In this document: positions 28,388 through 48,491 of the stretch, piece by piece
Layout of the letters: each line of letters opens with the position of its first letter
How positions within the stretch are numbered: position 1 is the stretch's first letter
DNA from: Paramarasmius palmivorus
Lineage: Eukaryota; Basidiomycota; Agaricomycetes; Agaricales; Marasmiaceae
DNA length: 64,000 nt
Reading direction: 5' to 3'
Assembly (NCBI GenBank): GCA_037176845.1
Contig: JAYKXP010000035.1
Coordinates: 62,001-126,000, forward strand
The notes under the pieces: generated by a model
Databases searched by the model: none
Told to the model about the DNA's origin: nothing
Seen by the model: the letters and a program-made list of their open reading frames with translations, nothing else
Program-made: the position numbers and the translations under genes

Positions 28388-29935
28388 CTAGACAGGTACA
28401 TCGTGATAACCCCAGTCCTCCTTCCCAAAATCCCAAAAGTCAAGCACCGTCCCATCCGCCTTATTGCTTGCAGCAACACACCATCTCCCGTGAAATGCGA
28501 CCTGCCATACATTGGTTATACCAGAGAGTAAATCCTTGGACGGCAGCATCCCATCCTCGTCTCCCCCAGCACTTGACGCATCCCCCTTCAAATCCCACAC
28601 TTTCAAGGTTTCATCGCCCCCGCTGACGATTTTGGTGTCGTCGTTCTGGAAGCAGGTTATCGCACCGGTGTGTGCGGTCAAGACGTGTTTGACTTCTCCA
28701 GTATCGGGATTCCAGACTCTGAGGGTCGCATCTGCTGCCCCCGAGACCAGATATGATGGCGAAAGGCCAAGTAGGCCGACTAGGGAGGTATGTCCAAGCA
28801 GAACGCAAATGCATGTTCCTTCGGTAAGTGACCATATTCTGATGGTGCCATCCATCGAGCCAGACATCGTCTGGTTGCGTGTCGAATCGAGCACTACGGT
28901 GTAGACTAGAAAGTGTATCAGCGCATGTATACGAGATTAAAACAACCCTGGTACATACCTTTCTGTGTATGACCTGTCAACACCCATCTACACACACCAT
29001 CTATTATATCCCAGACTCGGACCGTATAGTCATAGCTTCCTGAAACGGCTGTGCGTCCTCTAGCGGCTAGTGCTCGGACGGCATCGTCGTGTCCTTCGAG
29101 GTGATGTAAGTGGTATGGGTTGTCATCGGTATTCTGAGACTATACAACATCAGGGTTTGACTATGGGGCGTGTAACAGTGAGGACGCTTACATATTCGTC
29201 GTTTTCGCCGTCGATGCTTTTGTACTCCTGGTCATTCTTTCCTGGGAAAGACCACACTCGAAGTGAGTGATCTCTAGAGCCGGATACGATCAATGGTCGA
29301 TTTAGCCGTTCTTCTGCCTTGGTACTATCTGGTACAAGTTAGTCACCCAAATCAAGCTACATGGGCACGAGAAGACACGTACCTTCTCCGATATCTTTAT
29401 CTACCTCTGCAGGATCGACAACAGCGAGACACCGTACAGTGGAAGTGTGTCCACCAAAGATGTGTGTGCACTTCCCGTTCTCCAAATCCCATACACGAAC
29501 TGTACGATCGGTACTTCCGCTCACGAGCATTCCTTCCCTCGCTCCTAGTGCCCAGATCCCCCCCTCATGCCCCTCAAGGGACATTTCCAACTCTGCGGTT
29601 TGAGGGTCGTGTACGTGGATAGTGTGGTCGTCGGACGCGGAGATGATTCGGTGCCCTTTGGAGGGAACGAGCGCAAAGAGGAGGCATGTCACCACCGAGT
29701 GACCATGCGCTGGAATGGATATGTGCTTTGGATAGGTGTTGGGCGCACTCATCGAATAAGGTGTCGAACAGGATGTCGTAGTTGGGGTTGACCAGTGCTG
29801 CCTTGAAAGCGCTTTCCTTCCCGAATCTGCTCGCAGCCCAGCGCTAGAAATGGTGTTTTCATCGGGTGCCTTCCAAAACCTGGGAGGGGCCGTTTGGACC
29901 ACTAGATGCAGAGGATGACATGTGTAGTGAGGGGC
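28388..29935 (-). CDS. Cdc4/Pop1-type WD40 beta-propeller protein without a detectable F-box
   Basis: Minus-strand gene with three clear introns. Successive WD repeats read RIISASDDHTIHVHDP, LVSGSTDRTVRVWDLENG, GGHTSTVRCLAVVDP, IVSGSRDHSLRVWSFPG, AVSGSYDYTVRVWDIIDG, TMSGSMDGTIRIWSLTEG, LVSGAADATLRVWNPDTG and IVSGGDETLKVWDLKG. The C-terminal SGITNVWQVAFHGRWCVAAS with VLDFWDFG is typical of Cdc4/Pop1 substrate receptors. The expected N-terminal F-box is absent: before the first repeat there is only a short segment (KHISIPAHGHSVVTCLLF and about 60 residues). The start is unresolved between an ATG at about 29,920 with an extra intron and a downstream one. It could be a truncated paralogue acting without SCF, or a gene whose 5' end was lost. 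A decayed copy lies at 58.9-60.0 kb. Confidence 0.72.
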
Positions 29936-30025
29936 CGCCCACTATCCGGAGCCATGTTGACAATGACAGTCGATGAGGATGTCAAGAGGATGCCCCGCCT
30001 CCGATGAGCCTGCTACTCGGCAATG

Positions 30026-30034
30026 GTAGGCACC
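30026..30034. repeat. Candidate target-site duplication, left copy (GTAGGCACC)
   Basis: The same nine bases occur directly outside the right terminal inverted repeat at 46530-46538, in the same orientation. KDZ/Zisupton elements are known, as I recall, for ~8-bp duplications. Nine bases is near that but not proof. Confidence 0.5.
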
Positions 30035-30109
30035 AGATAGCCGCGTGTGAAAAGACCCGGAGTGACCATCCCTGCCTTTTTCTTTGTTGATTACACGCCC
30101 GCCCACTTT
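30035..30109 (+). repeat. Left terminal inverted repeat
   Basis: Reads inward AGATAGCCGCGTGTGAAA ... GCCTTTTTC ... CGCCCGCCCACTTT. The right end read inward gives GGGGCAGCCGCGTGTGAAA ... GTCCGCC ... CCCGCCCGCTCACTTT. The two 75/76-base ends share an exact 13-base block, GCCGCGTGTGAAA, and a second block CGCCCGC(C/T)CACTTT at the same spacing. Confidence 0.65.
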
Positions 30110-30129
30110 CTGTTCTTGCTGTCACTACG

Positions 30130-31560
30130 CAATTAATCTACACAGCCATGCATTGTTTATTTGAGTCCGTGGGAACCGTAACACAAACCTCAAAGATCAA
30201 AGCACGCGAAAGGACTCAGTGTACACAAACCATTTTGCTATGTGACGAGAAACAGTGTGTACAGACCGTTTCTCGCATTTTTGCATCTCAGGTCTGCTAC
30301 ATATATGTGAGTGCCATAGCACCCATTTCTGACGTTGATGCTCATGTTAGTTCGCACAGACTGTTTTAGTCAGTACATGAAGACCGTTTTGCTCAAGCCC
30401 ACCCGAAGTCAGTATCTCCGAACCATAACTACCCCCGACAGAGATCTTTTGAACTCAGTTTACCCGTACCGTTTGGCCTTGGTGAGTTCCAACACACTCA
30501 TTGCTGACAACGGTGCTAACGAAGTCAGTTCATGAAGACTGTTTTGCTCAAGCCCACCCGAAGTCAGTATCTCCGGACCATAATTACCCCCGACAGAGAT
30601 CTTTTGAACTCAGTTTACCCGTACCGTTTGGCCTTGGTGAGTTCCAACACACTCATTGCTGACAACGGTGCTAACGAAGTCAGTTCATGAAGACCGTTTT
30701 GCTCAAGCCCACCCGAGGTCAGTATCTCCGAACCATAACTACCCCCGACAGAGACCTTTTGAACTCAGTTCACCAGTACCGTTCCGCCTTGGTGAGTGTA
30801 GTCACACTCAATTCTGATGGGGTGCTGATCTTGGTTCATCCAGACCGTTTCACTCACACTCGCTCAAGGTTGGTTTCACCAGACTATTATAATGCTCGTG
30901 GTACCCAACTGCCACAAGTCAGTCTGCCTATACGATTTATCCCAGGTGAGTGCTGTAGCACTCATTTCTGATGCTCGTACTAAAGACGGTTCATGAAGAC
31001 GGTTCTGCTCAAGCCCACCCGAACTCGGTATCTCCGAACCAATCCTATGCCCGACCAAGACCTCTCGAAATCAGTTTACCCGTACCGTGCCGCCTTGGTG
31101 GGTTCAGGCATACTCATTTATGATAGTGCTGAGCTTGCTTTATACAGACCGTTTCGCTACCAAGTCGGTTTCACCAAACTATCATTACGCCCAGCGGCAC
31201 CCAAAAGTTCACTCTTTGAAGTCGGTTTACCCGTACGATTCAGCCTAGGTGAGTTCCCTAGCACTCATTTCCGACGCGGATACTGAAGTGGGTTCCCGGA
31301 GACTGTTTTGCTAGCGCCTACCTGAAGTTGGTTGGTATCGCCGAACCATTACGTTAGCCAACAGTAAGGCGCCGGAAGTTAGTCCTCCCATACCATTCCG
31401 TCTCGGTGAGTTCAATCACACTCATTTCTGATCCTATGGCTAATCTTGGTTCAAGCACACTGTTTCGCTTGCCTGCATCCGAAATGAGTTTCCTCAAACC
31501 ATATTCGTATGATCCAGACCATGAGTAAAGATATCAGTTCATGCATACTCTACCCTGCCT
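30130..31560 (+). repeat. Left subterminal tandem array, about 155-bp unit
   Basis: Units begin with CATGAAGACCGTTTTGCTC at 30376, 30531, 30686 and 30992, so the period is 155 bases (the last step spans two diverged units). The first three units are almost identical, and flanking units are increasingly diverged. Typical words are CAAGCCCACCCGA, TTACCCGTACCGTT, and GGTGAGTTCC followed by ACTCATT. Short ORFs here are artefacts of the repeat. Segments resemble the reverse complement of the array at 44.3-46.4 kb. Confidence 0.8.
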
Positions 31561-31754
31561 GCAAGTGGACTAGAACTCTTGCAACACCTTGTGCTAACCT
31601 GTCGTCAATGAACGCCTAAACTTTCAGTGTGTCTATTCATGGATATCTAACTGTTTATCTTGGACTCCCCGCCTCGGAGTATCCGTGATCTGAAGACCAG
31701 AAGGGAAAAAAATTACAACCATGCTAGGCACACATCGTGTGTGAATGTGAAAGA

Positions 31755-31835
31755 CAGTCACAGCCGGAGTCGAACCTGCAACGTCAATGCGTGAACATAC
31801 AAACAGGCCGCGAAACCACTGTGCCGCAAGGTGGA
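31755..31835 (-). other. tRNA-like sequence (B-box plus D-arm-like part)
   Basis: On the minus strand a perfect Pol III B-box GGTTCGACTCC is preceded by a D-arm-like GGCACAGTGGTTTCGCGGCC, at tRNA-like spacing. The two sides of the acceptor stem do not pair, so a functional tRNA is unlikely. A tRNA pseudogene or the head of a tRNA-derived SINE is more plausible. It lies inside the transposon, just upstream of the F-box gene. Confidence 0.35.
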
Positions 31836-31946
31836 TGTCGTTCTCGGAAAACATTTGGCCTAAGCCCCTTCACGTCGGAGCAAGGTACTGTCGGGGTTCT
31901 CTTTGTTTTCTCTCGCCATCCACTCACTTTTGATTCGCATCTCCCG

Positions 31947-33498
31947 ATGGGTTCTACTCTCAGCCTTGTTGTTGCGCAGCTTTCCCAAGACATCGACAAT
32001 CTACCCCCATGCCCCAGGTGAGTGTTCTTTCCTGAAAATTAAAAGCTGTTGTTCATTGCTGGACCTCAGAGCTACGGACGAGCGGGAGGTCAACAAGAAA
32101 ATGGCTTCCCTGCTTTTTCTCGAGCTCCAGCCGCTCCGACATCGCCTCAACCAGTTCCGAAATACCTTCCCAGAAGACGAATTCAAACGTCTACGACGTA
32201 AACTTCGAGGACATTACCAAGCGGGTCGAAGACTTGCCTCTCCCATCCACGGCTGCCCGCTAGAGGTCCTTTCAGCCATCCTTTCCCATGTTATCCAGCC
32301 CGTGGAGGTCACAGAACTCACGTTGAGTACTTGGGGTGGTAACAGCGACGCTCTAGCTCAATTCACGCCTTTATATCCCTGGGCATATGTCTCCTCTAAA
32401 TTCCGCAGAGCCCTTCTTACTACTCCACGCCATTTTGATCACATTGTCGTCCATCGTCACGCTCGATGTGTTGGGGAAGGTGCACACCGTCCTATGCTCA
32501 TGGAAAAACTCAATTTCTTCCTGAGCCTTTCTGGAGTACTGCCTCTCCACGTTAAAGTCGTTCTTTCTCTCCAATGGGGAGATCAAAATGACACTGCGGC
32601 TCTTCCGACGTGCCCTATCATCAATCGACTTCTGGAGAGACCATGGAAGTCTTTCAGTATCCAGGGGTCTGCCAGAAACTCGTCAATCCTTCTTCTTCGA
32701 CACACCATTGCTCTCATCACTCCCAACGTATTAACAACGTTGGAACTTCATATTGCTGAAGGACCTACTCTCGACTCATATCGAGAGCTATCACGCCTTC
32801 CAAGTACAATAACGACACTTCGGCTCAGTTTTGGATGCGGCTACCCCGACACTCCCGTATCCTTCGCAATTTTGCTTCCCCATATCACAGATCTGCGCGT
32901 TCGGGGATGTCTTAGGTCCATCTTCACAGTGTTGATAGGGTGTCCCGAGGTCCGGCGTCTGGAAGCCGTAATGGTCGGCAATATCATCCCAGAATGGTAC
33001 CTCACCTTCACGATGCCAAGTATCGAGTACATTGAGGCATCTGTTGATGCGTACCCTGGAGAGGAATTCCTTCCCTTCTTTCGCTACCTCCGTGCTCCTT
33101 CCACTCAGAGTCTGGTTGTTCATTGGAATGTTTCCTCGCCCAAAATCACCAGTGGTCTTTTCCCCGCCATGGACAAGTTCATCTGGTCGTTAGATGATTT
33201 TAGGGACCTCACACTCCTGGGTACACCCTTCTCCTTTCAAGAGGCGCGTGCGATGATGGGATCTGCAAGCCGGCTCTTTTACACGTCATCTGATCCATAT
33301 CGATGGAGATTATCATGGGAAGTCGAGAACTGGACATGGAGGCGAGATAGTCAGGAAGACTCTGATTCCCTCGCATCTTCGGTTGATGAGGAATGGGGTG
33401 GCGCGACCCCTCCTTGGGGTTGGCGGATGAATAATGAATGGGGCGACGCATGGGACGATGGTAGTTCAGGAGGTTATGGTGATGCAACAGCAGATTGA
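31947..33498 (+). CDS. F-box-like leucine-rich protein carried inside the transposon
   Basis: Two exons: 31947-32019 (MGSTLSLVVAQLSQDIDNLP) and from 32072 to the stop at 33498. The intron is GTGAGT...CTCAG and phase is preserved (PCPR|ATDERE). A helical N-terminus (ELQPLRHRLNQFRNTFP) leads to the F-box-like core SPIHGCPLEVLSAILSHVI with ALLTTPRHFDHIVVH, then leucine-rich repeats (LTTLELHIAEGP, TITTLRLSFGCG, HITDLRVRGCL). The tail is acidic and Trp/Gly-rich (EEWGGATPPWGWRMNNEWGD). It is a putative SCF receptor, as in many agaricomycete expansions. It is intact and has ordinary base use, so it is either recently captured cargo or a host gene overrun by the element. Confidence 0.78.
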
Positions 33499-33833
33499 TA
33501 CTGTGTCAAGCTCGTTTAGAATTTGTTTTGTACTACCAGAATAATACAACCCTGCTCAGAAATCCACACTTGAGAATTGTGTTTTCGTACCAGCATACTT
33601 CAGGATGTACCCCTTGAGCCGGCGGCATTCAGTATGCTATCAAATATCTATCCTTATCGTGACGCTTGACGCGGCGCTATCACCTCAAAAATTTGATTCC
33701 GGAATTTGATTGGAGTACTTTCTAAGTTGAATTTTTAACTACGTTCCCGGCTTAAAGCGATCTGAGCAGCGTGTCTAGACCTCTCAATCAAGCATTCTTA
33801 AACAAGAGTGGTGTGTGTTGAGGGGGACACAAC

Positions 33834-33861
33834 AAGAGTTAATTAATTGTATAAATGGAGT

Positions 33862-33892
<31 letters not shown>

Positions 33893-35261
33893 GGGGGGGG
33901 TGGTGGAGGGGGGGGGGGGGGGGGGTTAAAAAAATAATAAGATAAAAATAAAAAAATTTTAAAATAAAATTATTATTTTGGGTTTGGGGGGGGGGGGGGG
34001 GGGGGGGGTTTTTTTGATTTTTGTGTTTTTGTGTGGGGGAAATGATTTTGATGTTTATGGAGGGTGATTGTGTGTGTTTATGTAGATATTATAAAGGGGG
34101 AGTGGTTAGAATTAGGGGATGGTAGTTGAAAGGTGAGAGGAGATAATGAGTGGATTGGATATTAATTTAGGGGGGGGAATTTGTTTGTAGGGGAAGTAGT
34201 ATTAATGGGTGATTGTATGGTAGAGGGATGGGAATATGAATAGAAGGGTGGAATTTTTTGTGATGTAGTGATGGGGGGGGTTTTATTAAAAAGATAATGA
34301 ATGGAGAGTGGGAAGAGTTTTTAATGATTGGGTTTTATGGGGGGAGTGGGGTGGAGGAGAGGGAAATTAAATAGGAAGAGTATGTGAGATATGTGGTGAA
34401 AATTGATTGAAGTAATAATTTTAAAGGGACTAGGTTGATGATTGTGTGGTGAGTTAAGGGATTTTAGAAGGTAGGGATTTGGAAAAGGAATGTTTGGGTG
34501 TATGGGGGGTTAAGAGGATTATGGTGGGGTGGGTGGTAAGGGGTAGTTAGGGTTAGGGGGGGTGAGGTGGGATGTTATGAGGGGGGGAAGGTGTGGTTGG
34601 AGTTTTTTAGGGGTGGGGGGGGTTAGTAGATTGGAAGGGGGGTGTGTGTATGGGTTTTTTGGGGGTTTATTTATGGTTTGTGTTTTTTTTTAGGGTGGGT
34701 AAATTATAGGGTGTTTATTAGTGGGTTTATTATTGTTTGTTTTAAGTTGAGGAGGATTGGGATTATGTAGGAATTAGGGGGGGGGGAGTATGGGGGGAGG
34801 AGGATATAAAATAAGGTATTTTATGGGTATGAGAGGAATGTGGAAATTGGTGTGGGTAGGGGGTATTATGATAGTGGTGAAGGATAGTAGGTGGGGTTGG
34901 GGGGGGGGATAATGAGGAGTGAAAAAAAGGGGGGAAAAAATGGGTGGGGGGGGGGAAAAAAGAAGGATAAGGTAATATGGAGGGTGATTGAGTGGGTATG
35001 GAATAGGAGGGAAAAGAAAAATTGAATTGTATTTGATAGAGGAGTGAAAGATAAATTGAAGGGGAATTAAAGAGAGGAGGGTATGAGGAGGAATATGGTG
35101 GGATTAGTAATGGAGGGTAATTGGTGTTGTTAATTATTGTATGATATGGATATGAAATGGGAATTGAAGAGGGTGTATAGGAAAGGTATAGAGGAATAAT
35201 AAAGATTGTGTAATTAGTAGATATTGGATTTGGAGTAATTAGAAAGGTGAGAAGAGAGGTT
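33834..35261. other. 1.43-kb block almost devoid of cytosine on the + strand
   Basis: Between the C at 33833 and the C at 35262 there is a single C (34430). The block has long G homopolymers (two near 33,863-33,925, one near 33,985-34,008) and is otherwise composed of G, A and T. The transition to normal sequence on both sides is abrupt. By eye G makes up roughly 35-50 percent, about what G plus C would be in normal sequence. That suggests C and G have been merged into G rather than C converted to T. The 3' end of the neighbouring minus-strand gene runs into it and becomes an artificial G-free open frame. A base-calling or assembly artefact is the leading explanation. Confidence 0.85.
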
Positions 35262-37358
35262 CCATCTTCTGATCCCTCGGAGCCGCCGTCTTCCTCTTCA
35301 TTACCGACCGCGTTGTTGTCGTTAGCCGCCTTCATCGCCTTGGTAACGCCTGGCCACGGTGTGCCAAAGAGTTCCTTGTCATTGTCAAAGCGGCGTCCAG
35401 TGGACTTCTCTGTCAGTGTGTGGAACCGGCACTTTGCAAAACCTTTCTGAGATGTAAGGGCTGCGAGCGCGATTTGCCAGGACGATGTAGCGGCTTCAGG
35501 AATGGTGGAGGAGTGCTTGAGCACGTAACTTGTGAGGCCTTGCGAGACCTTGGGAATACTAGACGGACCCGCAGTAGCCTTGCACCGTCGAATCCAGTTT
35601 TTGGCCCATTCTGTGAAACTGTGAGTTTGGACACGATGCTGAGATTGCCAATAACAACTTACTAATGGTGCGGGGTGGGACTTCACTCAATGATGGATCG
35701 TGCGCACCATTAGACTCCCCCTCGGCATTGTCTTCGTCCTCAGAAGTCGCTGGAGGGTACGATTGTGAGTGGGCATAGCAACAAAGAATAGCGAAGACCA
35801 CACACCTTTTGCTTTGCCTTTAGCTTTAGATTTACCTTTACCCTTTTTCTTCCCGTTCGCCGGGGCAGCCTGATTAGCGTGCGCATTCCCATCATGGTGA
35901 GGAGTTGCTGAAGAGGTACGTGTAAGATTGATAGTTTTGGTAAGGGAGTAGACGTACCTTTGGTCTTCTTCTTGCCTGATTTTCCCGGGGCTGGTGCGGG
36001 TCCAGTTTCCTTGTCGACAATGCTAGCTTCAGAGGGCACCTCCGCTTCTAAAGGTTGGAAGCTAGGTCAGTAATTAAAGGAAGTAAAAAAGTGCGACATC
36101 AAACCTTTCTCGACGGTCTTGGATGATTCATCTGGGATCGAGGCTTCACCTTTAGCCTTCTTTTGCGGCCTTGTTTCAGGCTGTGTGTCGGAGCCTGTAC
36201 GTTTACGGGTGGGGCCAGTATTTGATGAGTTATCGAGTGCCGCTGGAATTGGATCGTCGACTTGGCGAGAAAAAAAATTAGGTAAGTCAATAAAGCATAG
36301 CATGAATTGCCACACCGTTTGTCTTGTTGACAGTGTTTTGAAGTCCATTGCCGTCTGGAAGTTCCTTGCCGTCTTGAAGTCCATCACTGTCTTTGGAACT
36401 GGATGGCTTCTCTGCTGGCATCGGGGGAGCTTCGGTACTTTTGTCGGAGCCTGAAACAGGATTAGTATGGCAAAGTGAATACAAACAACGCGACTTACTA
36501 TTGTCTTCAGCTGTAGCAGCGGGCGTGGCGACTGAATTGTCTGCAGAAATTTTAATCGTAGAGAAAAACACCCAGTAGAACAAATCTCGTACTGTCGTTG
36601 GAGGCTGTAGCTTCAGGAGCACCACAGGAACTGGCGCCAGCGTCGCTCGTGACACCATCAGTCAAAGTCGGTGTCACAGACGTCTCAAGATCTAATGACA
36701 AGACATAAACGTTAGTACTTGACCAACGGAAAGAGACCTATACCTCACCTGCCGTCTTGGATGGACCCCCTGATGGTATGTCGTCCGGGAGGTCTGACAA
36801 TTCAGATAAGACGGGGCTGGATGGAACAGCGATTTCATTACTATGATTGGGGGCCGCCCGCTTCAGAGCACGATCTAGAGGTTTTGAAAAAATTAATACG
36901 AGCAGCAGGACATACTTGAGGGCTTACTCCGGGCGGTTGTATACACGCCAACCAGCTTCTTGGCCTGGCTCATTTTGCGACCAGACTTCCCGGCCAAACT
37001 TTTTTTGGCCTTCCAGTCCTCGGTGGCCTCGTCGTAACGGCGCTGGGTGTCGTCAGTTCTCCTGAAGTCCAGTTCATGTTTGGCACGACCACGCAAACGA
37101 TCAGCTTCGCCCGTTGCTGCAACGTCAGCCTCCCACTGTGTCTTGATAGCTTCAAACGAGGCTTGGGCATTGGCCAGTGCTAAATATCCTGTCAGCAATG
37201 GCTCAACTATTGAAAAGGAATGTCTGACCTGCAGAGGCTTGTGCCACCGTCATGGCTGTAGCGGGCGCTATGTTCGCTGGAATAGAATGTAACATATTAG
37301 TGTCGGGAGGAAGGTGAACGCCATGAAAAATCTTACTTTTTTTCTTCTGACCGGCCAT
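35262..37358 (-). CDS. Transposon-borne hypothetical protein, 3' end lost in the C-poor block
   Basis: Starts at ATG 37358 (MAGQKKKSKIFHGVHLPPD), followed by many small exons. The product is a coiled N-terminal part (ALANAQASFEAIKTQWEADV, RTDDTQRRYDEATEDWKAKK) and a long low-complexity middle rich in Ser, Pro, Lys and acidic residues (KKTKG, KGKGKSKAKGKAKG, NAEGESNGAHDPSLSE). A better-folded segment follows: EWAKNWIRRCKATAGPSSIP, VSQGLTSYVLKHSS, then KSTGRRFDNDKELFGTPWPG. The reading then enters the cytosine-depleted block. I do not recognise the family. Its position beside KDZ genes suggests a transposon-encoded accessory or nuclear DNA-binding protein, but that is context only. Confidence 0.55.
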
Positions 37359-38212
37359 TGTGAGATTGGAGAGGAGAGACGTCTGAGAGTCGAGTTGGTT
37401 GGTGGTGGTTAAGAAGAAAGTGGCGATAAACCCTGAGAAAATGGGCAACAAAAAATACAAGAATAGTAAATGTTCCCAGTGCGCTATCCGGAAGGATAGG
37501 GTAAGTCGGAATGACATCGTGGAACAAGGTGACCATTAGGGGATGTACGGAAAGGGAGATCTGCCAAGGTTTGCGAGAGTTTTCTCCTTTGGTGCTGGAG
37601 GACGGGTAGATAGTTGTTCATCCACCAGGCATTGCAAATGCAATGCCTGGTGGTCAAAACGAACCAGGGACAGTGGAAAGAAAGCACGCGGCACAGCGAC
37701 GCGTGTTCTGACCAAGCAAGCTCAGCCAAACAGTTGACATCACCCGGCGCTTGCTCGAGCTGCTCCAAATATCGTTAAGATACATGTTATATTTTCTGGC
37801 AGTCATCAAGTACAATAGCTCGAAATTTACTTTGCTAGTTCTTGAATATAATCTACATCTCAATCAAACCCAGGTCACAGTCCTTTTGTCTCGGTAGCCG
37901 ATGTAATATCTATGAAAGAGGTGGTTTAGCCGCCCGCCAGGCGCTCATGTTCGACTATTTGAACGTTCATATATCCAAGGACCTCTACTGTGATGGGTTG
38001 TGGGTTGGAGAGACCAATGTTTAAGTGTAATAGAATGCTATGTCCAAAAATCTAAGCAATTGAAAGAGGTAAGAAAATGTGGTGCAGACGTACCTTGTAA
38101 GTGGTAAGAAACCCCACCTCGGTGATGCCTCAGACGGATACAGCGCGTAACCCTCACAGAGCTACATTGCTGACTATCTCTTGTTCTCACCTCTATTGGC
38201 CTTGCCTCATCA
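37359..38212. other. Divergent intergenic region of the transposon, with a palindrome
   Basis: Lies between the start codons of two divergent genes, so promoters for both are expected. Several overlapping short ORFs are unconvincing. The strongest feature is a near-perfect palindrome listed separately. Confidence 0.4.
37622..37653. repeat. Perfect 15-bp inverted repeat with a 2-base centre
   Basis: Arms CCACCAGGCATTGCA and TGCAATGCCTGGTGG are exact reverse complements separated by AA. It could be a regulatory or transposase binding site or a cruciform, in the divergent promoter region inside the element. Confidence 0.85.
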
Positions 38213-39050
38213 ATGCCTCGACGCAAGACCCGGTCTAAGGGGGACATTCAAGCTGCTAACCGCCTCAAAGCCTCCAATTATTATTACCGGTAAGTGAAAT
38301 ACATACGATTTCGTCTGAAGCTGTTCTCAATGAACTACAGGCACCGCGAAACCATTCTGGCGAGACACCGAGCTCACAGAGAACAAGCTAAGCGCGAAGA
38401 AGAGATTACTAGGAATGTGTTCAGCTTAATTCGCACCTCATTCCCCACCTTACCAGCACACAGATTCAAGATAACAAAAGAGGAAACTCAGATGCGTTTC
38501 CAGCGAGATCAAGCAGGAATAGGCAAGGATGCCACTACCTTCTTGTGCGTCGAGGAAAGTCTATGTATAGATCTGATGCGGACATTAATTTGTGAACCCA
38601 AGGGACCCACTTGGTTGCTTGCGTCGATTGAAAAAGAAGATATCCTCAGAAACCGGCGGCTCAGTCAGCACGTACATCAACAATGCCTTCCTTCTGACAA
38701 TGCAAGTTCGAACCTCTGGCTCCCAATCAGCCTCCACACCTCTTTCTAGAGCATACGACATGTTCATGCAAATTCTTTCCCAAATTAACCGCCTTGATGA
38801 CCTTGTTCTCAATGATCATGGTGCTGGCAAAGAATATCAACGAGTTCAGGCTTTTCGTGAGCAAGTTCGGTGGATAATTCGCTGCCTTGACGACATCGAC
38901 ATGTACATGTTGGATCCCGATGCTGATCCACAAAAGGCCTACAACCAAGGGAAGCTGGCTTTCCAAGATCCAGGGAACCAGGAGTTCATTGATGGTTTGA
39001 CGGGGGCACCGAAGGTAGAATACATGACGAGTATTGGTCGTTCTGTATGA
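38213..39050 (+). CDS. Transposon-borne helical protein with basic N-terminus
   Basis: The first exon 38213-38289 encodes MPRRKTRSKGDIQAANRLKA, SNYYYR. After an intron ending at 38340 it continues HRETILARHRAHREQAKREE with further charged helices. A later exon in another frame (from about 38,592) reads NPRDPLGCLRRLKKKISSET, GGSVSTYINNAFLLTMQVRT, SRAYDMFMQILSQINRLDDL and YQRVQAFREQVRWIIRCLDD to the stop at 39050. The connecting intron between 38,520 and 38,600 is not resolved. The basic YYRxxRExIxxRxRxxRxxAK start resembles short basic helices that I associate with KDZ neighbourhoods and that recur in the next gene. Function unknown; nuclear DNA binding is a guess. Confidence 0.55.
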
Positions 39051-39142
39051 TGAGACAATGAATGTACAACGTCGTGTTTGGCTGTGACTTATGTGACAAC
39101 ATTGTGACACATAATATTTTCACCCTTCTTTGATCCACTTCC

Positions 39143-39650
39143 ATGGTGCTGAGCGATGAGGAAAAGAGACAGGCTAATAAGGTGGCCTGTGCTAAATATC
39201 GTGAGCGGTACGTCCAATATGATACCTACAAATATGAGCTATAATTACTAAAGATTGCAGACACGCTCAACAAATACGGATTCGGTCTCGGGAACGGATG
39301 CGGCGATACCGCATGAAGGGCAAGGTCTTGCGGTATGTGGGCTTTAGTTAGTTGGGCGGCTCTTGGGCAGAACAGACTTTAGAAGCAACGGAGGGGAGCA
39401 GAAATGTCCACCGCGACACCGGAGGTTGAAAGACAGGTGCGTTCTGCCAGCGCTGAGGGTGAACCGGTCACTGATAATTCCTAGCAGTTCAAACAATGGA
39501 TCCTCCCCTTCGCCGACATCTTCTCCCGCCTCATGTTCTCGAACTCCTCCGGTCCTGACATTTCGCCACTGGAACGATCCACCTCGTTATATTTCACCTC
39601 ATCATTATCCTTATATGTATCAAACACATCACACTCAGGCTGGCTAATGT
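39143..39650 (+). CDS. Small basic protein of the transposon
   Basis: Starts at ATG 39143 (MVLSDEEKRQANKVACAKYR). An intron of about 53 bases, then HAQQIRIRSRERMRRYRMKG, a second short intron, and a Pro/Ser-rich C-terminal part (GSSPSPTSSPASCSRTPP, HWNDPPRYISPHHYPY) ending near 39,647. The second and third exon frames have more than one possible junction, so the C-terminus is tentative. The arginine-rich helix parallels the N-terminus of the gene to its left, suggesting that the two arose from one basic module. Confidence 0.45.
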
Positions 39651-39696
39651 CAGTAATACTTGTTCATATACGTTGTACCATTATGTTATCACAATG

Positions 39697-40968
39697 CTAT
39701 GTCACTGCTATCGTCGATGCAATATTGATACCTGCCGCTTCCAAAGCCGTGCGATACTCCTCTGCCTTCTTCAGTGCGGCCTCCTCAGCTTCCTTGGCAC
39801 GGGTTAGTTCATCCCGGGCTGTCTCAAGATCGGCAGCAATCTGAGAGACATCACGGCGACGAGCCGCTTGCAAACTGGAGTACATCCGTTTGGATGCTTG
39901 GTGCACAGTGTCCATCAGCTCTCCGCCCTCGCTCCGAAGTCGTTCCGAGGTATAATGTATAAAAGGATGCTGAGAGGTAGGTAGCTGTGCATTGAAGTAT
40001 AGCCAACATCCGGTCTCAGTCGCAAGGTCCTCGAGCTGTAGACGCGTCATGAGCTTGGCGGAAGGAATACGGATGGGATAAAGTTGCCACCTTGGTCATG
40101 AGCGACCGCGTCCGGTCGTAAAAGCGTTTTGGGACATTGAGCGTGCGGATCTTGCCCGGGTTGATAGCCTGCCGAGTTCGGAAACATGCTGTGATACTCG
40201 TAAATCAACAGCTTTCTACCACAGGGAGGTCACTTACATAAGTGCCTAGTTCCGCGATATACTCCAGTTACATGGCCAAAGATAGGCTTCTTCTTGGATG
40301 CACGTTCCCGCCGACTAGGGGTACTGGAAACACTGGAGGGTGTGACTGAAGATGATGCCAAACTATGACCAGGGGAATCGTGTCCGTCCAATAGGTTCAT
40401 GGATCCTACAGAAGCTGAACGCTGACGCCGAGGTGTCTGGAAGGGCGAGCTCTGGGGAGACGGAAGGAAGAGGGGCTGTGGCGGTGCAAGAATGGCGGGG
40501 TCAATAGGAATGTTGCTCTGTCGCAGGAGATGAATACAAAGGCTAAATGAATGGGGGTTACACATACGATGCCATTTGCAGCCGCTGAAGCCTGGCTCAA
40601 TGATTCTTCAGGTAGAGGAGCTCCCGGTGTATCAAAAGATGAAGTATTTTCACTGCCAATAGCCTGAGGTCCCGAGTCATTTGACGACGTAGGTTCACAT
40701 GGTTGGCTCGACGCGTCGATCGCACCAGAACTGGTCTACTAGCGTGGTTAGCTGCCGGATCTAGAGTAAAATAACCCAAAACTCACCAAAGATGTGTTTT
40801 GAGAGTCCCTTTTCTTCTGCGGGCAAAGTCAGTAAAAGAAAATGATCAAGTAGGTACACTTACACCGCGCTGTCTGCCACGGCTGTAGCTTGGACATTCC
40901 TTCATCAAATGAACTTGAGGGAGGCATTTACGACACATGCGCTGCTTCTTGGTGGTCTCTGAAGTCAT
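39697..40968 (-). CDS. Zinc-knuckle and coiled-coil protein divergent from the transposase
   Basis: Starts at ATG 40968 (MTSETTKKQRMCRKCLPQVH). Residues 12-25 form a CX2CX4HX4C zinc knuckle (CRKCLPQVHLMKEC). Several exons follow with a Ser/Pro-rich middle (PPQPLFLPSPQSSPFQTPRR, SLASSSVTPSSVSSTPSRRE). The C-terminal exon (39697 to about 40,050) forms a long coiled coil: RLRSEGGELMDTVHQASKRM, ADLETARDELTRAKEAEEAA, LKKAEEYRTALEAAG. The zinc knuckle suggests nucleic-acid binding and the coil suggests oligomerisation. Only 77 bases separate its start from that of the transposase, so both are probably expressed together from a shared promoter and may act together. Confidence 0.65.
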
Positions 40969-41045
40969 GGTGATATAGACAGAGGACGCAAGAGTGCGTT
41001 GTCGCGCCTTATGAAGCGCGCTGGAGATGATTAGTCAGCAAATCA

Positions 41046-44000
41046 ATGGCAAACTGGGACGACGACAACGAACCCTTTATTCTAGAGCCTCTGCCTGAGA
41101 TAACTCAGGCTCCTGAGGCATATCCTGGTCACCTCAACCACTTCATTCCAAGTCCTGTGCGTTCGTATAATGCAAATCGCAATAAGCGCCGAGCCCAACG
41201 TAAAGGAGAGAATGGTTCCAAGCGCCGGAAGAACACGGAAAATGTCAGCAACACAGGCTCCAGTGGCGAGATATCAGCAATGGGTGATACACTACCGACA
41301 ATTGACGAATGCGAAGCACCAATGGCCTATGCAAATCCAGTCATCGACGAGAATCCCTTTGCGCCTGAACCGCTCGCAGAGGATGTGGATAAAGACGATG
41401 CATATCAGGAATTCATATGTCTTGTTGAGGACCAGTGCATCTCTTTTGTTCATGTAGCAACTCGCGTGTATGTGGTTGAAGGCTTTGATGAAAGAAAAAA
41501 GGAGGGGACGGTATGTCATTTCCCATCATGGCGACTATGGAGTGGGTGACTAACCTCGTAAGCATCCCAGGGCATTTTCTATCATTTCGAGGCTAGAAAG
41601 AGAGGGAATAGTCTGGACCTCGTTTGTCAGTGTCCTGCAGGAAAGGATATTTGTGTACACCGTCGGTTTTATGAAGAGTTTAGGGAAGCACGCTTCGCTG
41701 CGCAGGAGGCACATCTGGATCTTGGTGAGCCATACAAGCCAGGAGATCAGAGATCACACGCAAACTTACAATCTAAAGATGGCGATGTGGTGTGCTTTGC
41801 ACGTATCCAGATCGATACAGAGAAGGATGTTTGGATAAGCCGATTCTCTGTGGCAGGCGGTACGGCATCCAACACCGGGCGTAGTCGTGCTATCGTCACC
41901 TTTGAAGGGATAGCGTCAGGTGCAGGGAAATGGCAGTGCTCCAAGGACCGAGACTTACATGGAGCAGAATGTGCCCATATGACGCGGGCAAAGAAACTCC
42001 TGGACCTCATTACAGGTAATGCAGGGTCGGAGGTGGGAGGGGACAACACTGGTGACAAGATGTATATGGGTGAGTGGTGTTGGATTTTGTTGACGATAGA
42101 CGTCTAATACCAGTCTAGTCGACGGCATGAACGCAGGGGGGAATTCTGAGAGATCAGTCTCTTACCTTCCAATTATGCCTCCTCCATGGGCACTTCTACC
42201 CGAAGATGAAATACTATATCCATACCCTTCACCAAATGCCGATTTGCCGGAGTTGCTTGCACTTGATGAACGGTCTCGAAGCTTTTGCGGCGAGCATTTC
42301 TTTAGTCCGCAGGGACCGAAGTTGCAGAAGGACTGCACCGTGTATACGCTTACCCATAGCATGCTTCGGAAGGTGGAGTTACAATGGTGTCCTAGCTGTC
42401 CACGGCGACGCCAGTGCTTCATAGGACCTGAACCACGCGACCTAGGACTGTTTAACTACAACAATTCAGTCATCTTCAACCACGAGCTGATGAACGAACT
42501 CACAAGCCGATATACCAGTAGCGAAACACCTTTCACAGCTTTTGTTCAGGCTGTAGATCGCTTGTATACCTCCCGAGGATGTCGTTTTGTGGGCGAGGAC
42601 CTATTCCGATCCGCATGGTTCGCATTTGCAACCAACCAGGAACTGAAGAATGACATGTCATGCTTGGAGTGTGGAGTACATCCAAAGACAGTCATCTGGG
42701 ACGGAGTGACCATTTCCTTTGCGAAGCGACACCTCAAAGACACTCTCCAGCCTCCCACGTGCATTACAGAGAATGCACCAAGGCGAAAACGAACTCGGGT
42801 GCACAAGCAACAATGGCTACCTCACGGCAACGATAAGACAACACCAGTACGAAAGCTTCTCGTGAATTGGCTGCGGAAATGGGGGGATAAAAAGGCTTCT
42901 GAAAGTATGCCCAAGACGCCAAACGTGGATGTGGAGGCGTCTTCTGAGGAAGAAGACATCGATCTGTCGGCAAAAGACAGCACCATATCTGAGACGACAA
43001 GGCGTGAGGGGGAGTTGCAGGAGGTACAGAGGCGCTTGGTGGAGACAGGGGCCGCACCGGTTCGGGAGCTCCTCGCCGAGGTGTATGGTGCAGGTGGTGA
43101 TGGCCTACACTGGAGATTGCGTAAGCGGTATAAAATGCTGTTGGAACAGGTAATGTCAAAACTTGGCAAAGAAGGAATGAATGACTGATCGAACCTTCAG
43201 ATTGGGGCGGAGGAATCTGTGTTGCAGATGGTCAACGAGAAGGGATTGAGAGCACTGAAAGCCTTTGTGGAATGTCCTGACGCTAATAGCATTTCGCTAC
43301 TGACCGATATCCCGGTTCTAATGATGATCCTGGAGTATTTGAGCCACAGCCGGAAAAGTCTGGTGTCGCTGGTGGCATTGTCGAAGTGGATGATACAGCG
43401 AGTAGAAGCCGTACTGGCTCAGCTCAAGAACGGGTACGATGTGCCATTACAGAAACTACCGATGGGGGAGGTGAAAACGGAAGACTGGCGGAAGGTGAGT
43501 TCGGATCAGAGGTTAAGGTGACACTGCTCACCAAGGTTCAATCACTATAGACAGGATGCTGTTATGGCCTTCCACAAATTCGCGATCGTCCTGCATATCC
43601 GAACATCTCTGGTGACACGGAACCTGAAAAAGATGTGAAGAGGGGCGGTCAATGCTCGAAGTATTATTCAACATACAGTGAGCGGAGACTGACCGGAGGC
43701 ATTCTATGCGCATGGTGTACCCACAGCATATGCTACGGTTTCCATTGTATACCCAAGGGAGAGGGAAGGAATGATGTTTTCTCTGCCATGGTTACTCGTT
43801 GGCCGAGAGCACCCGAAACAGTGATCTACGACTTTGCTTGTGCCTTGGGACCGTATTGTCTGACAAGGGAGCCAGAGTTCTTCTCAGAGACACTGTTTGT
43901 GGTGGACCGGTTTCATGCCAAAGGCCACACTAGATGCTCCTCTGCAGCCTTTCTCTCGACATACGGTGAAGTCAATGGTGAGGTAGACAGGATCAATTCG

Positions 44001-44144
44001 AGCGCGGCGGAGTGTGGAAACAGCGGGATGACACGCATACGCAAAGCTGTCAGTTATATGCGTCAGAATCGAGCAATTTTATACACCAAGCATTACCTCT
44101 CCATTTGGAATAGGGTGCGGATACGCAAGATGCGACGACTGTAG
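41046..44144 (+). CDS. KDZ (Kyakuja/Dileera/Zisupton) transposase, intact, 960 aa
   Basis: Five exons that keep frame exactly: 41046-41510, 41571-42069, 42119-43149, 43201-43494 and 43551-44144. Order: a basic/acidic N-terminus, then a SWIM-type zinc motif CQCPAGKDICVH in GNSLDLVCQCPAGKD, then a second SWIM-like WQCSKDRDLHGAECAH. A cysteine cluster region follows (CPSCPRRRQC, then FNYNNSVIFNHELMNELTS and VIWDGVTISFAKRHLKD), then a zinc-rich segment (CAWCTHSICYGFHC). The catalytic part shows PETVIYDFACALGPYCL, LFVVDRFHAKGHTRCS and INSSAAECGNSGMTRIRK, which gives candidate D, D and E residues. It is expected to excise and integrate the surrounding element. No stop or frameshift is visible, so it may be active. 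Superfamily assignment is by motif recognition. Confidence 0.9.
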
Positions 44145-44289
44145 GCAGAGATGTAAAGAAATGAATGAAGCTACAGAAGAAATAGGTCTCACCGGCATTA
44201 AGCAGAGCGAAACGTACGCTGGGTATGGTAGAAAACAGTTTGAGCAACGGGAATTGTTGAGTAAAGGGTGTGAGCAAACTGAAAGCGGG

Positions 44290-46310
44290 TGAGCACGGAG
44301 AATGCTGCCTGCTTCAATTAGGTAAGGATTTCCACAATCATGTGATTACAATAGTTCACGCTAGAGTTCAATAAACAGTGCATTCAAACTAAGGTAACAA
44401 TGGATACTGTGAACGACGAGCGTAGCGTAGAAAGCTGCCTACACTAAACACAATATCAACATGCCTCTCGTGAGTACTCATTTAGGTTCGTGAATATGGA
44501 CGGCATTGCGTACCAAAACCATAAGGGGGAGCGGGGCCCGGGCAGATGTGCGAGAGATTCAGTATGTGACAACTGACATCAGTGGGCCCTATGATAAATG
44601 GTTGTTATGAACTGAAATGAACATGTATGGAACAAATGAGTTCGACGCGACTTACATCGTGTTCCCAAGAAATAGTTTCTCGGAACTGTATTCAGTGCTT
44701 GATAGAGGAAATAGTCCGAGCCAACTGAATTGCGGAGGGACGAGCGAAAGGCATGTCTGTCGACATTGAGTGTGTCAGAACTGACATTGGTACGTCCGAC
44801 TAGAAACAGTCTCGGTAAACCGAAATAAACCTGTGTCCAGCAAATGAGTTCAAGGCAACTCACCTCCAGGGCCCACCAAACAGTATCTCAGAACTGTATC
44901 TGAGACTCGAGGGAGTTAACAGTTTGGGTCAACCGAATTGCGGGGGTATGAGCGAAAGGTAGGCCCCTCAGAATTGAGTATGTCGGAACTAACATCGGTG
45001 GGTACGACTGAACACGGTCTCTGGAAACCGAAATAAAGGTGTGTCCAACAAATGAGTTTGATACGACTGACTTCGTGTGCCCAACAAACAGTCTCGACGA
45101 ACTGTTTTCAGTAGTTGTGTGAGGAAACGGTTCTGGTCGACTGAATCGCAGGAGTGAGAGCGAAAGGTAGGGCGTAGAAGATTGAGTCCATCAAAACTGA
45201 CATCGGTGTGAGCGAGTATAAATGGTTCCTATACACCGAAATAAACATGTGCCCAACAAATGAGTTTGAGGGAACTCACCTCGCCCCAACTAATAGTATG
45301 ACGAGACTGTATTCGGTGCTTGGGTGAGGAAATAGTTCACGTTGACCTAATTGCGGGAAGTGAGTACTAGTGAGTGATAGGTAGGCCCTTCAGTATTGAG
45401 TACGTCAGAACTGATATCGGTGGGTAAGGCGGAAAACGGTCCCTGAAAACCGAAAAAAAGATGTTTTCAACAAATGAGTTTGATACAACTGACTTCGCGT
45501 GCCAAATAAACAGTCTCGCGGAACTGTATTCAGTACTTGTGTAAGGAAACAGTTCAGGTCGACCGAATTGCGGAGGGACGAGCGAAAGGCATGTCTGTCG
45601 ACATTGAGTGTGTCAGAACTGACATTGGTACGTCCGACTAGAAACAGTCTCGGTAAACCGAAATAAACCTGTGTCCAGCAAATGAGTTCAAGGCAACTCA
45701 CCTCCAGGGCCCACCAAACAGTATCTCAGAACTGTATCTGAGACTCGAGGGAGTTAACAGTTTGGGTCAACCGAATTGCGGGGGTATGAGCGAAAGGTAG
45801 GCCCCTCAGAATTGAGTATGTCGGAACTAACATCGGTGGGTACGACTGAACACGGTCTCTGGAAACCGAAATAAAGGTGTGTCCAACAAATGAGTTTGAT
45901 ACGACTGACTTCGTGTGCCCAACAAACAGTCTCGACGAACTGTTTTCAGTAGTTGTGTGAGGAAACGGTTCTGGTCGACTGAATCGCAGGAGTGAGAGCG
46001 AAAGGTAGGGCGTAGAAGATTGAGTCCATCAAAACTGACATCGGTGTGAGCGAGTATAAATGGTTCCTATACACCGAAATAAACATGTGCCCAACAAATG
46101 AGTTTGAGGGAACTCACCTCGCCCCAACTAATAGTATGACGAGACTGTATTCGGTGCTTGGGTGAGGAAATAGTTCACGTTGACCTAATTGCGGGAAGTG
46201 AGTGATAGGTAGGCCCTTCAGTATTGAGTACGTCAGAACTGATATCGGTAGGTACAACTAAAACAGTCCCTACAAACCGAATACCCAGAATTGCGGTATC
46301 TGTTACAGTA
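44290..46310 (-). repeat. Right subterminal tandem array, about 209-bp unit, with a recent 838-bp duplication
   Basis: The word CCGAAATAAA (or a variant) recurs at about 44,819, 45,028, 45,236, 45,450 and 45,657, giving a period near 209. A block of four units is repeated almost identically, with an offset of 838 bases (for example CGACATTGAGTGTGTCAGAA at 44761 and 45599). The only difference I noticed is a 10-base insertion near 45,365. The reverse complement resembles the left array, for example GGTGAGTTGCCTTGAACTCA against GGTGAGTTCCCTAGCACTCA. Confidence 0.8.
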
Positions 46311-46453
46311 ATTGGTCCACACGAACTGTTCTAGAGAGCCATTCTGGATGAAGGCGTTGGCCACTTTGTAAAAAAAGAGTGCGAGGAAACTGAGAAATTT
46401 GATAGCGGACAATTTTATGTACATATGTCATCTATCATGGGCGCCGACATCAA

Positions 46454-46529
46454 AAAGTGAGCGGGCGGGTAAGTACTTCTTTATCTAGGCGGACATGCCT
46501 TTTCTTGCACTTTCACACGCGGCTGCCCC
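46454..46529 (-). repeat. Right terminal inverted repeat
   Basis: Inverted counterpart of 30035-30109. Both contain GCCGCGTGTGAAA near the outer end and CGCCCGCNCACTTT at the inner end, with partial matches between. Confidence 0.65.
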
Positions 46530-46538
46530 GTAGGCACC
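46530..46538. repeat. Candidate target-site duplication, right copy (GTAGGCACC)
   Basis: Direct repeat of 30026-30034, immediately outside the right inverted repeat. Confidence 0.5.
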
Positions 46539-48491
46539 GGCAACCGGTCCTTTGCCCTACTTTTTTCTTCTTTCTTGTGGAACGCATAGGATAGACGCAC
46601 AAGGGTGTGGTTAGCACTCCTCCCTCCGCCCGCGAACGGGCTTCCTCAGGCCAACATAGTCGGTGTACACCATATCCGCGTGTAGGGGGCGAGGAAACGA
46701 GACCTCGCCAGGGGCCTTTGGCCTTGCTTATTCACTCATCATTGTTCTTACCGCCTTCACTTGGATTCCAAAGTATTGTCCTTGTGGTGTAAGGGAATAC
46801 TCACAAAGGATTTTTTATTCGATAATCCGCGGACAATCCTTTTCTAGGTGCGCTTTCGGACCAGTCGATAGTACATCGGGCACAGTAGATCCAGCAGAAC
46901 TCATGATCAAAGGCTCAAAATCAAAAAGCTGGATCATACGACTCCGTACTGTAATGGACTTTATTTCCACCACCTATTTTGACGGAGGTTCTGCGTCTGT
47001 TGGCGATTACCCAGACACTGCAAGTTTTACCCAACGCTCGGACCATCGAACCATCGAACGGGGATGCTTCAACATCACATAGGGGTGAACCGGTGCGCAT
47101 TCCTTAGACCTATACTTTTCTTCTCTTAATTGCCGTTTTATTTCCAAATGTCGTAATAATGGCTAGAAGTTCTAGCCATTATTTCCTAGTCCGCCTGCGA
47201 ACAAACTTTCAACGCACGGCAGATTCTTTCGGGGTTTAACAGGTCGCGACAAGTGGACAGCATCTCTTCACTATTAACAGCTCTTTCTCGCATTCACTTC
47301 AAGGGTGTCCGAGTCTAAAGGTGGGCGGCGTTCAAGTTTAGCGGTGATGATAATGTGACCTGAAATGGTTAAATTCTTCTAACAGCTCACACTGTTCCGA
47401 AGCAAGCGAGGCGGCCAATTTGCTACCGAATACGACAGTAGACGAGGCGATGATAGAAGATTGTAGTGCGACAGGAGATCCATGTTAAGCGGAAAACAGT
47501 ATGTGCTCGGAGGATCTGGATCGCAAAGGGTCTTCGGTATGTAAACATTGACAAGCTGTTCAAAGTCCGGCCCTGATCTAGTTTGCCGAAAGATGCTCTG
47601 AGTATCCGGATCCGACTGAACAGAAGTTGTCATATGCAAAGAAATGGATCCCAACTTGCTCTCGTCGTTCACTTGTCGCTCATTCTAGATTGGCTTGCTC
47701 TTCGGTCTGATTTCGGTTTCTATCAAGCATCCGTAAGTGAATAATGAGTGGACGAACCAGGAGGGACGTATAGAATGCCAAATACAAGAGAAAGGCCGAT
47801 TGCGTTACCATATGTTTACAACCGTTCACCCTTGCATTGCCTTCGCCCATCTGATTCTTACCATTTTGGTTCTGGAGTCTTCACCCTTGTACCGCCTCGA
47901 TTTTAACATGCTTCAAATGTTCAACGCCCAAGAGCGGCGATAGAGATGTATGTACCGACATTCCTAGTTTGGGCTAGGCAATGGAGCTGGTTCCGGTGTG
48001 GAATCATGAAGGGGTTTCGGCCTTTTCAGTGCATGAGGTACGCTTTATCCGTGATCGAGCGTCCATCCTTGGGCTGACCCAGGAGATATCATCATCAGGT
48101 CTGCGTATGCGCCCATGCTTCAAGCCCGTAGGTCGTTCACAACGGCTTGCAATGGCTCGGGTTTCGATCTTTCGGTATGCGGAGATATCATCTGCAGGCT
48201 GATTCTGGGCCAGATAAACTACATTTGGTCCCTTACTCAGCTGGGAATAGTATTCTCGGTTGATAGATGGCATTGCATTCCCGCCGACAAGTGACTCACC
48301 CTGCAGACTCCTTTGGGGAAAAGGTCCAGATTTGTACGATCTTCTGCGCTCTGTCTACCCAAATTGCTGATCGTTGCCATAACACATTTCAGCGGATGTG
48401 GAGTTCGCCCTTGCATGTGGGCACCGGCGCAGCCATGCCTTGGGAGATACAACCAAACTTGCTCACAACCATGACAAGCACAAATAGTGGC
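46539..48491. other. Duplicated non-coding or relic sequence (copy A)
   Basis: From about 46,800 onward this matches 60,070-61,690 with many substitutions and indels. ORFs such as the minus-strand 47,379-47,672 are not conserved between the copies, so I do not call a gene. A perfect palindrome is listed separately. Confidence 0.45.
47155..47183. repeat. Perfect 14-bp inverted repeat with a 1-base centre
   Basis: Arms AATAATGGCTAGAA and TTCTAGCCATTATT flank a single G. It may be a miniature-element core, a regulatory palindr­ome or a hairpin-forming transcript. I see no equivalent in the second duplicated copy. Confidence 0.85.

Follow-up and report, generated by a model that had tools for sequence, protein, structure and literature searches.

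In the usual picture, a DNA transposon consists of one or two genes framed by inverted repeats. Within the KDZ superfamily, KDZ1, KDZ2 and KDZ3 of Cryptococcus neoformans are about 9–11 kb long, have terminal inverted repeats (TIRs) of 139–241 bp and 8-bp target duplications (4–8 bp for KDZ2 and KDZ3) and have been shown to move (PMC12810828). Fungal elements of the Zisupton, Dileera and Kyakuja groups can carry TET/JBP genes; in the available part of that report, Zisupton and a Dileera element have 8-bp duplications, and Kyakuja has 7-bp duplications and no TIRs (PMC12730594). KDZ TIR motifs were characterised in Marasmius oreades, along with KDZ and Plavaka elements (PMC8290104), and in Pleurotus ostreatus CxC2 stands ahead of the intact KDZ genes (PMC7641404). 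Here we describe an element in a 64,000-nucleotide stretch of the Paramarasmius palmivorus genome (the window, on contig C35). It extends from position 30034 to 46529, is 16,496 bp long as assembled and is flanked by the 8-bp duplication GTAGGCAC. We consider it highly probable that this is a KDZ-type TIR transposon with a CxC4-type transposase, likely moved by cut-and-paste, and that three further genes, constant at 20 loci, belong to its own machinery.

The lineage is a multi-gene variant of the known KDZ superfamily. Like KDZ1–3, the window element is fungal, has TIRs and 8-bp-type duplications and combines a cysteine cluster with a transposase, predicted in its case to be of KDZ type; KDZ1–3 are smaller, however, have CxC1 instead of CxC4, and the accessible sections of their description name no accessory genes (PMC12810828). 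The TET/JBP-bearing elements are likewise KDZ elements of Basidiomycota with an extra gene, but there this gene is a TET/JBP dioxygenase (PMC12730594); no TET/JBP domain was found among the window open reading frames (ORFs) scanned with Pfam. M. oreades belongs to the same fungal family as P. palmivorus, and the part of its KDZ account that is available does not mention accessory genes (PMC8290104). Defined ends alone are not new, as TIRs and 8-bp duplications have been published for other KDZ elements from fungi (PMC12810828, PMC12730594). No earlier report of the gene order described below was found in the literature searched (the 2014 founding KDZ paper lay outside its coverage, and this is not proof of absence).

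Starships of Pezizomycotina are likewise large, gene-carrying fungal elements, and they use a tyrosine recombinase (PMC12134995). The window element instead has TIRs, an 8-bp duplication and a CxC4/KDZ transposase. Among those element ORFs that were scanned with Pfam (a part of the total), neither a match to a tyrosine recombinase captain gene nor any other Starship sign was seen, in agreement with the first-pass annotation, which had set the element apart from Starships.

Element ends, copies and empty sites

The two copies of the duplication lie at 30026–30033 and 46530–46537 and were recognised both by reading the ends and by an end scan. The element starts with CAGATAGCCGCGTGTGAAAAG at 30034, and its right end, TTTCACACGCGGCTGCCCC, finishes at 46529. 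The left TIR occupies 30034–30118 on the plus strand, with the same end in all three further copies described below; the right TIR occupies 46445–46529 on the minus strand and is supported by the end scan and a 14-mer search. It had been proposed that the element has imperfect inverted repeats of about 75 bp flanked by a direct 9-mer. Both ends are present as described, but each repeat consists of two conserved blocks within about 85 bp and not of a single continuous 75-bp repeat. The duplication also exists, but it is 8 bp long: the ninth base shared by the flanks, the C at 30034, is the first base of the element in all four copies, and its match on the right is coincidental. TIRs as in Zisupton-like TIR elements are thus present (two blocks in the last 85 bp, recovered by a blind scan), and an 8-bp duplication in four of four copies fits the 7- or 8-bp rule of the KDZ superfamily (8 bp for Zisupton).

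Searches of the P. palmivorus genome (68.3 Mb, 393 contigs) with both ends revealed three further copies with the same ends, on C183, C58 and C32, giving four copies on four contigs. BLAST similarity of the C183 and C58 copies to the window starts and stops at the element ends, to within one base. The C32 copy matches the window from the left end, and its right end was placed by pattern and end scan. As had been anticipated, the shared ends stand in different flanks, and each copy has a duplication of its own (ACCTTTGC in C183, GCACCGCG in C58 and CAAGTCCG in C32). The three copies measure 20,516, 15,741 and 15,908 bp, respectively; the C183 copy is longer because 4.6 kb sits inside its right array. 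This insertion (C183 62897–67532) has a 240-bp inverted repeat and an ORF that, judged by eye, resembles a Helitron helicase; Pfam gave no match.

Candidates in the end scan were inverted pairs of 30 bp bounded by 8-bp direct repeats; the left end had to lie in the first 10–12 kb and the right end beyond 15.5–16.5 kb of each stretch, and reversed sequence served as a control. It placed the expected ends first in all four copies. Among 745 candidates in the window they came top with matches at 18 of 30 positions, compared to 14 for the runner-up and 14 for each of the four best reversed controls. The margin is wide for C58 (22 versus 16 for the next candidate and 14 for the control) and narrow for C183 (18 versus 17 and 16) and C32 (18 versus 16 and 15). 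At eight more distant loci the best pairs scored 15–18 versus 15–17 for the controls, and the top pair (C2, 18 versus 16) is without TIR-like letters. The 14-mer AGCCGCGTGTGAAA occurs seven times in the 68.3 Mb, each time at one of these element ends, and its reversed form is absent. Both the element and its ends are real, and the claim of a complete TIR element with a target duplication stands.

Empty sites were sought with the joined flanks of each of the four insertions, one duplication being kept. They were found for the C32 and C58 insertions, each match spanning all 172 query bases. The C32 empty site lies on the same contig (22715–22886, 98% identity); its flanks are identical at 338 of 350 and 345 of 350 positions, and it contains exactly one CAAGTCCG. 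The C58 empty site lies on C41 (418530–418701, 95% identity), with flanks identical at 317 of 331 and 333 of 346 positions. For C183, no empty site was found in the genome with the joined flanks. In principle, segmental duplication of a gene cluster could have produced the four copies, their inverted repeats being fortuitous, and a gene order stable over many loci would agree with this. We regard this as extremely improbable, since similarity ends at the inverted repeats, each copy has its own 8-bp duplication and two empty sites exist. The mobility of the element can be tested directly by means of its defined ends, its duplications, the empty sites and the candidate binding motifs.

Transposase and conserved gene order

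The transposase gene (41046–44144, plus strand), identified by Pfam and a splice model, has a CxC4 cysteine cluster and a weak KDZ match. Its five exons lie at 41046–41510, 41571–42069, 42119–43149, 43201–43494 and 43551–44144. Several intron choices leave the frame open, and the one used keeps GT–AG introns in all copies; with this model the frame is open in all four copies (960–962 codons including the stop; 960 in the window) and the introns are conserved. The intact transposase of the first-pass annotation is thus borne out. CxC4 (PF18717), an associated cysteine cluster of the KDZ superfamily, scores 143.9 bits versus a cut-off of 26.9. When a profile of the last exon from nine loci was compared to four other KDZ genes of the genome, motifs YDxAC and FHAxGH were aligned (probability 63, E 6.8e-5). 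We predict from sequence that the transposase belongs to the KDZ superfamily. With at least 178 KDZ-domain matches, the genome carries a heavy KDZ load.

Four further genes lie between the left end and the transposase. G1 (plus strand) has its main exon at 32068–33498, to which database models add a short upstream exon. G2 (minus strand) is best supported in exon 35261–35611, and further exons to about 37350 are likely. G3 (plus strand, 38213–39050) has a first exon at 38213–38289 and a main exon at about 38600–39050. G4 (minus strand, 39697–40607; conserved exon 39697–40035) codes for a coiled-coil-like protein and is divergent from the transposase gene, running in the opposite direction.

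To map these genes across the genome we searched with one exon per gene, which after merging gave 57 places for CxC4, 28 for G1, 24 for G2, 54 for G3 and 45 for G4. Rows that were dropped or merged were second or overlapping pieces of listed genes (4 of 61 for CxC4, 1 of 29 for G1 and 1 of 46 for G4); the neighbour count took in all 24 G2 and 54 G3 rows, and 150 of the 178 KDZ matches entered. At 20 of the 57 CxC4 loci (the window and 19 others) the order G1(+), G2(−), G4(−), transposase(+) is constant, strands included. Of the 57 loci, 43 have G4 upstream of CxC4 and, without exception, on the opposite strand (2.2–3.0 kb away in 42 cases and 4.1 kb in one). G2 is upstream at 22 loci, always on the opposite strand and 6.6–9.3 kb off, and G1 at 20 loci, always on the same strand and 9.2–15.8 kb off. 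The transposases of the 20 loci are 48–57% identical to that of the window over the matched part, apart from three close copies with 69–93%. G3 follows a different pattern. It is present at 10 CxC4 loci; one of these copies, at a distance of 17.5 kb, may be unrelated. Of its 44 matches outside CxC4 loci, 30 have an entered KDZ domain no more than 15 kb away, so that G3 may serve several KDZ lineages as an accessory gene. A possible extra small gene on the plus strand (39143–39320) has a first exon, MVLSDEEKRQANKVACAKYRER, that resembles the start of G3.

All four genes besides the transposase are supported by their substitution pattern. The ratio of nonsynonymous to synonymous substitution rates (dN/dS) is 0.05–0.26 wherever dS is measurable, calculated for exon pieces of at most 452 (G1), 116 (G2), 149 (G3) and 111 (G4) codons; dS against C32 is saturated for G2, G3 and G4 and measurable only for G1. 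Judged by these sequence comparisons, the genes are under purifying selection. About five other genes had been counted initially, of which four are supported in this way.

In the first-pass annotation the additional genes were regarded as cargo, that is, host genes captured by a KDZ transposon and carried as passengers, whether or not these are of use to the fungus. Such capture would explain why the genes have no recognised transposition function, why some G1 and G2 relatives lie away from CxC4 loci, and why eight distant loci have other left-arm genes (see below), as gene exchange would give. We nevertheless think it rather unlikely, because order and strand are constant at 20 loci with transposases as diverged as described outside the three close copies, because the genes are under purifying selection and because G4 stands beside nearly every relative. 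As G1, G2 and G4 accompany a transposase of this type at 19 other places, with order and directions unchanged, they are likely working parts and not passengers, and the fixed order at 20 loci and the purifying selection leave the cargo reading unsupported. The lineage thus keeps at least four genes in constant order and strand at 20 loci, with transposase identities down to 48%. The extra genes can therefore be studied as transposon functions instead of captured cargo, and G1–G4 represent candidate proteins for the movement of the element or for coping with host defence. Internal genes without these ends, which had been named as potential evidence against a transposon, do occur at other loci of the genome; since each of these loci has its own diverged transposase, we read them as relatives that would have different ends.

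G1 is open in all four copies, with frames of 475 amino acids in C183 and 474 in C58 and a 501-amino-acid database protein in C32. It was initially called an F-box protein, and UniRef likewise uses the name F-box domain-containing (two proteins). The name rests on UniRef and on inspection by eye and was not confirmed by Pfam, which recognised none of G1–G4. No PDB sequence match was found for G1, and protein searches, with the sequence alone or aligned, returned three proteins, all from the P. palmivorus genome. A genome-wide search with the F-box-like model PF12937 scored 150 of its 880 candidates, and no listed row falls in a G1 gene. G1 may still work like an F-box protein despite the undetected domain. 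A link between F-box proteins and KDZ elements is given by zebrafish F-box genes with a KDZ-derived CxC7 domain (PMC12062965). According to the available part of that report, however, these encode a host fusion protein and are not a separate gene within an element, and G1 is not a confirmed F-box gene.

Several observations weigh against a KDZ-type transposon with accessory machinery of its own. The KDZ domain (PF18758) stays below the curated 26.6 bits (the last exon by itself scores 23.9, the full model 19.6), and G1 is without a Pfam match up to E 10 (window protein and the four aligned copies). Seven of the 28 G1, two of the 24 G2 and two G4 places are away from CxC4 loci, and 14 of the 57 CxC4 loci are without G4, several of these being on short contigs or only distantly related. 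Ends are defined for four of the 20 loci, and the placement of G1 and G2 inside an element is limited to those four. C32 has diverged at its right end, where nucleotide BLAST gives no match to the window. The empty site of C58 reads GCACCACG versus GCACCGCG, one duplication base off, and about five bases just left of it differ. Of the empty sites that the first-pass annotation proposed to look for, that of the window insertion was not found in the genome, searched with the right flank and with the joined flanks. Within the window copy, 1.43 kb are doubtful because they are nearly free of C (see below), and movement of the element itself was not observed. As a separate observation, G1 and G2 lie together on C79 and C112 without a detected CxC4, C79 also having G4 24 kb away; these clusters are suggested to be decayed or interrupted relatives.

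Left arms and mosaic structure

For the eight more distant loci about 12 kb upstream were taken. BLAST finds the transposase and G4 in all eight (in C141 only a short stretch of G4), and G1 and G2 were not found in them by BLAST. Instead, their left arms have in common other genes that run opposite to the transposase, one in all eight loci, one in seven and one in four. Some of these genes show only weak leucine-rich-repeat Pfam matches, below the cut-off. An NACHT/NPHP3-type gene lies directly to the right of the distant C30 element (stretch L034, 6521–8176).

The window copy is itself a mosaic, with a C32-like left arm and a C183-like remainder. Between 31700 and 33450, informative sites pair the window with C32 at 306 positions, with C183 at 5 and with C58 at 2. 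From 35200 to 44144 the corresponding numbers are 74, 343 and 83, and in the doubtful zone between the two they are 94, 15 and 6. Synonymous divergence shows the same switch: dS of G1 is 0.28 to C32 and 0.83 to C183, and that of the transposase is 0.18 to C183 and saturated to C32. The distant elements C188 and C10 are 96% identical over 3 kb of their left part and 74–84% identical in the rest up to the transposase, which makes them a possible second case of arm exchange.

The mosaic breakpoint coincides with a zone (33834–35261) that contains a single C on the plus strand, at 34430, and G runs of up to 30 bases. Elsewhere in the window, no stretch without C exceeds 37 bases, and the other three copies have a normal composition in this zone. 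The composition is a possible assembly artefact, perhaps from poor reads, and since the zone is untrustworthy the length of 16,496 bp is valid only as assembled. We also considered C conversion as the origin of the zone and rejected it, as the homologous zones of the sister copies, whether left unaltered or with C replaced by T, G or A, align to it no better or only marginally better than shuffled sequences (score versus the highest shuffled score: unaltered C183, 44 versus 40; C183 with T for C, 285 versus 282; unaltered C58, 39 versus 38).

The window copy could accordingly be an assembly chimera, in which two elements were joined in the low-complexity zone near 34 kb; the nearest relative switches at 33.45–35.2 kb, exactly in the doubtful C-free stretch. 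A simple misjoin of two insertions is unlikely, though, because both window ends share one duplication, and unrelated insertions would share the same 8 bp by chance about once in 65,000 cases. The other three copies are element-sized units of 15.7–20.5 kb, and C188/C10 likewise have a far more similar left part. Taken together, we give a chimera little credence and treat the window copy as a case of module exchange between DNA transposons. As a tentative generalisation, and one we hold to be less probable than not, CxC4–KDZ elements of Agaricales may be modular multi-gene transposons with a fixed core of transposase and G4 and interchangeable left arms that are swapped by recombination in a phage-like manner; the F-box-like arm gene of one clade would co-opt the host ubiquitin system to escape silencing.

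Subterminal arrays, proposed mechanism and surroundings

The arrays noted in the first-pass annotation are subterminal. Repeat analysis places the left array at 30338–31489, with units of about 155 bp, and the right array at 44610–46281, with eight copies of a 208-bp unit; both carry RGACYGTTTY motifs that point inward. The window, C183, C58 and C32 copies have 8, 4, 2 and 5 inward motifs, respectively, in their first 1.7 kb and 4, 5, 11 and 3 in their last 2.4 kb; neither region has an outward motif. RGACYGTTTY is nearly absent from the element interior, and the looser GACYGTTT has two outward matches. Since the motif was picked after viewing the window arrays, only the other three copies test it, and they do so partly; array units that carry it are not independent of each other. 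RGACYGTTTY is a candidate transposase binding site.

What is known of DDE transposases suggests a cut-and-paste mode for the element, with a staggered 8-bp cut. The transposase would bind the inverted repeats and the inward motifs of both subterminal arrays, excise the element and join it to a staggered 8-bp cut at the target. G4, and also G3, whose relatives are often near other KDZ genes, may act together with the transposase. If G1 is an F-box protein, it could direct a protein of the host or of the element towards ubiquitination and in this way, for instance, weaken silencing. The mosaic breakpoint suggests that left arms may be swapped between elements by recombination.

To the left of the element, a WD40 gene occupies 28388–29941 on the minus strand. 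The nearest entries in its PDB list are designed propellers, followed by FBW7 and Cdc4. The element lies 85 bp upstream of the WD40 ORF, and a matching N-terminal half was not seen by eye to the right of the element. On the right side, about 150 bp (46561–46712) recur with 86–87% identity on C139, C107 and C8 and represent a small repeat.

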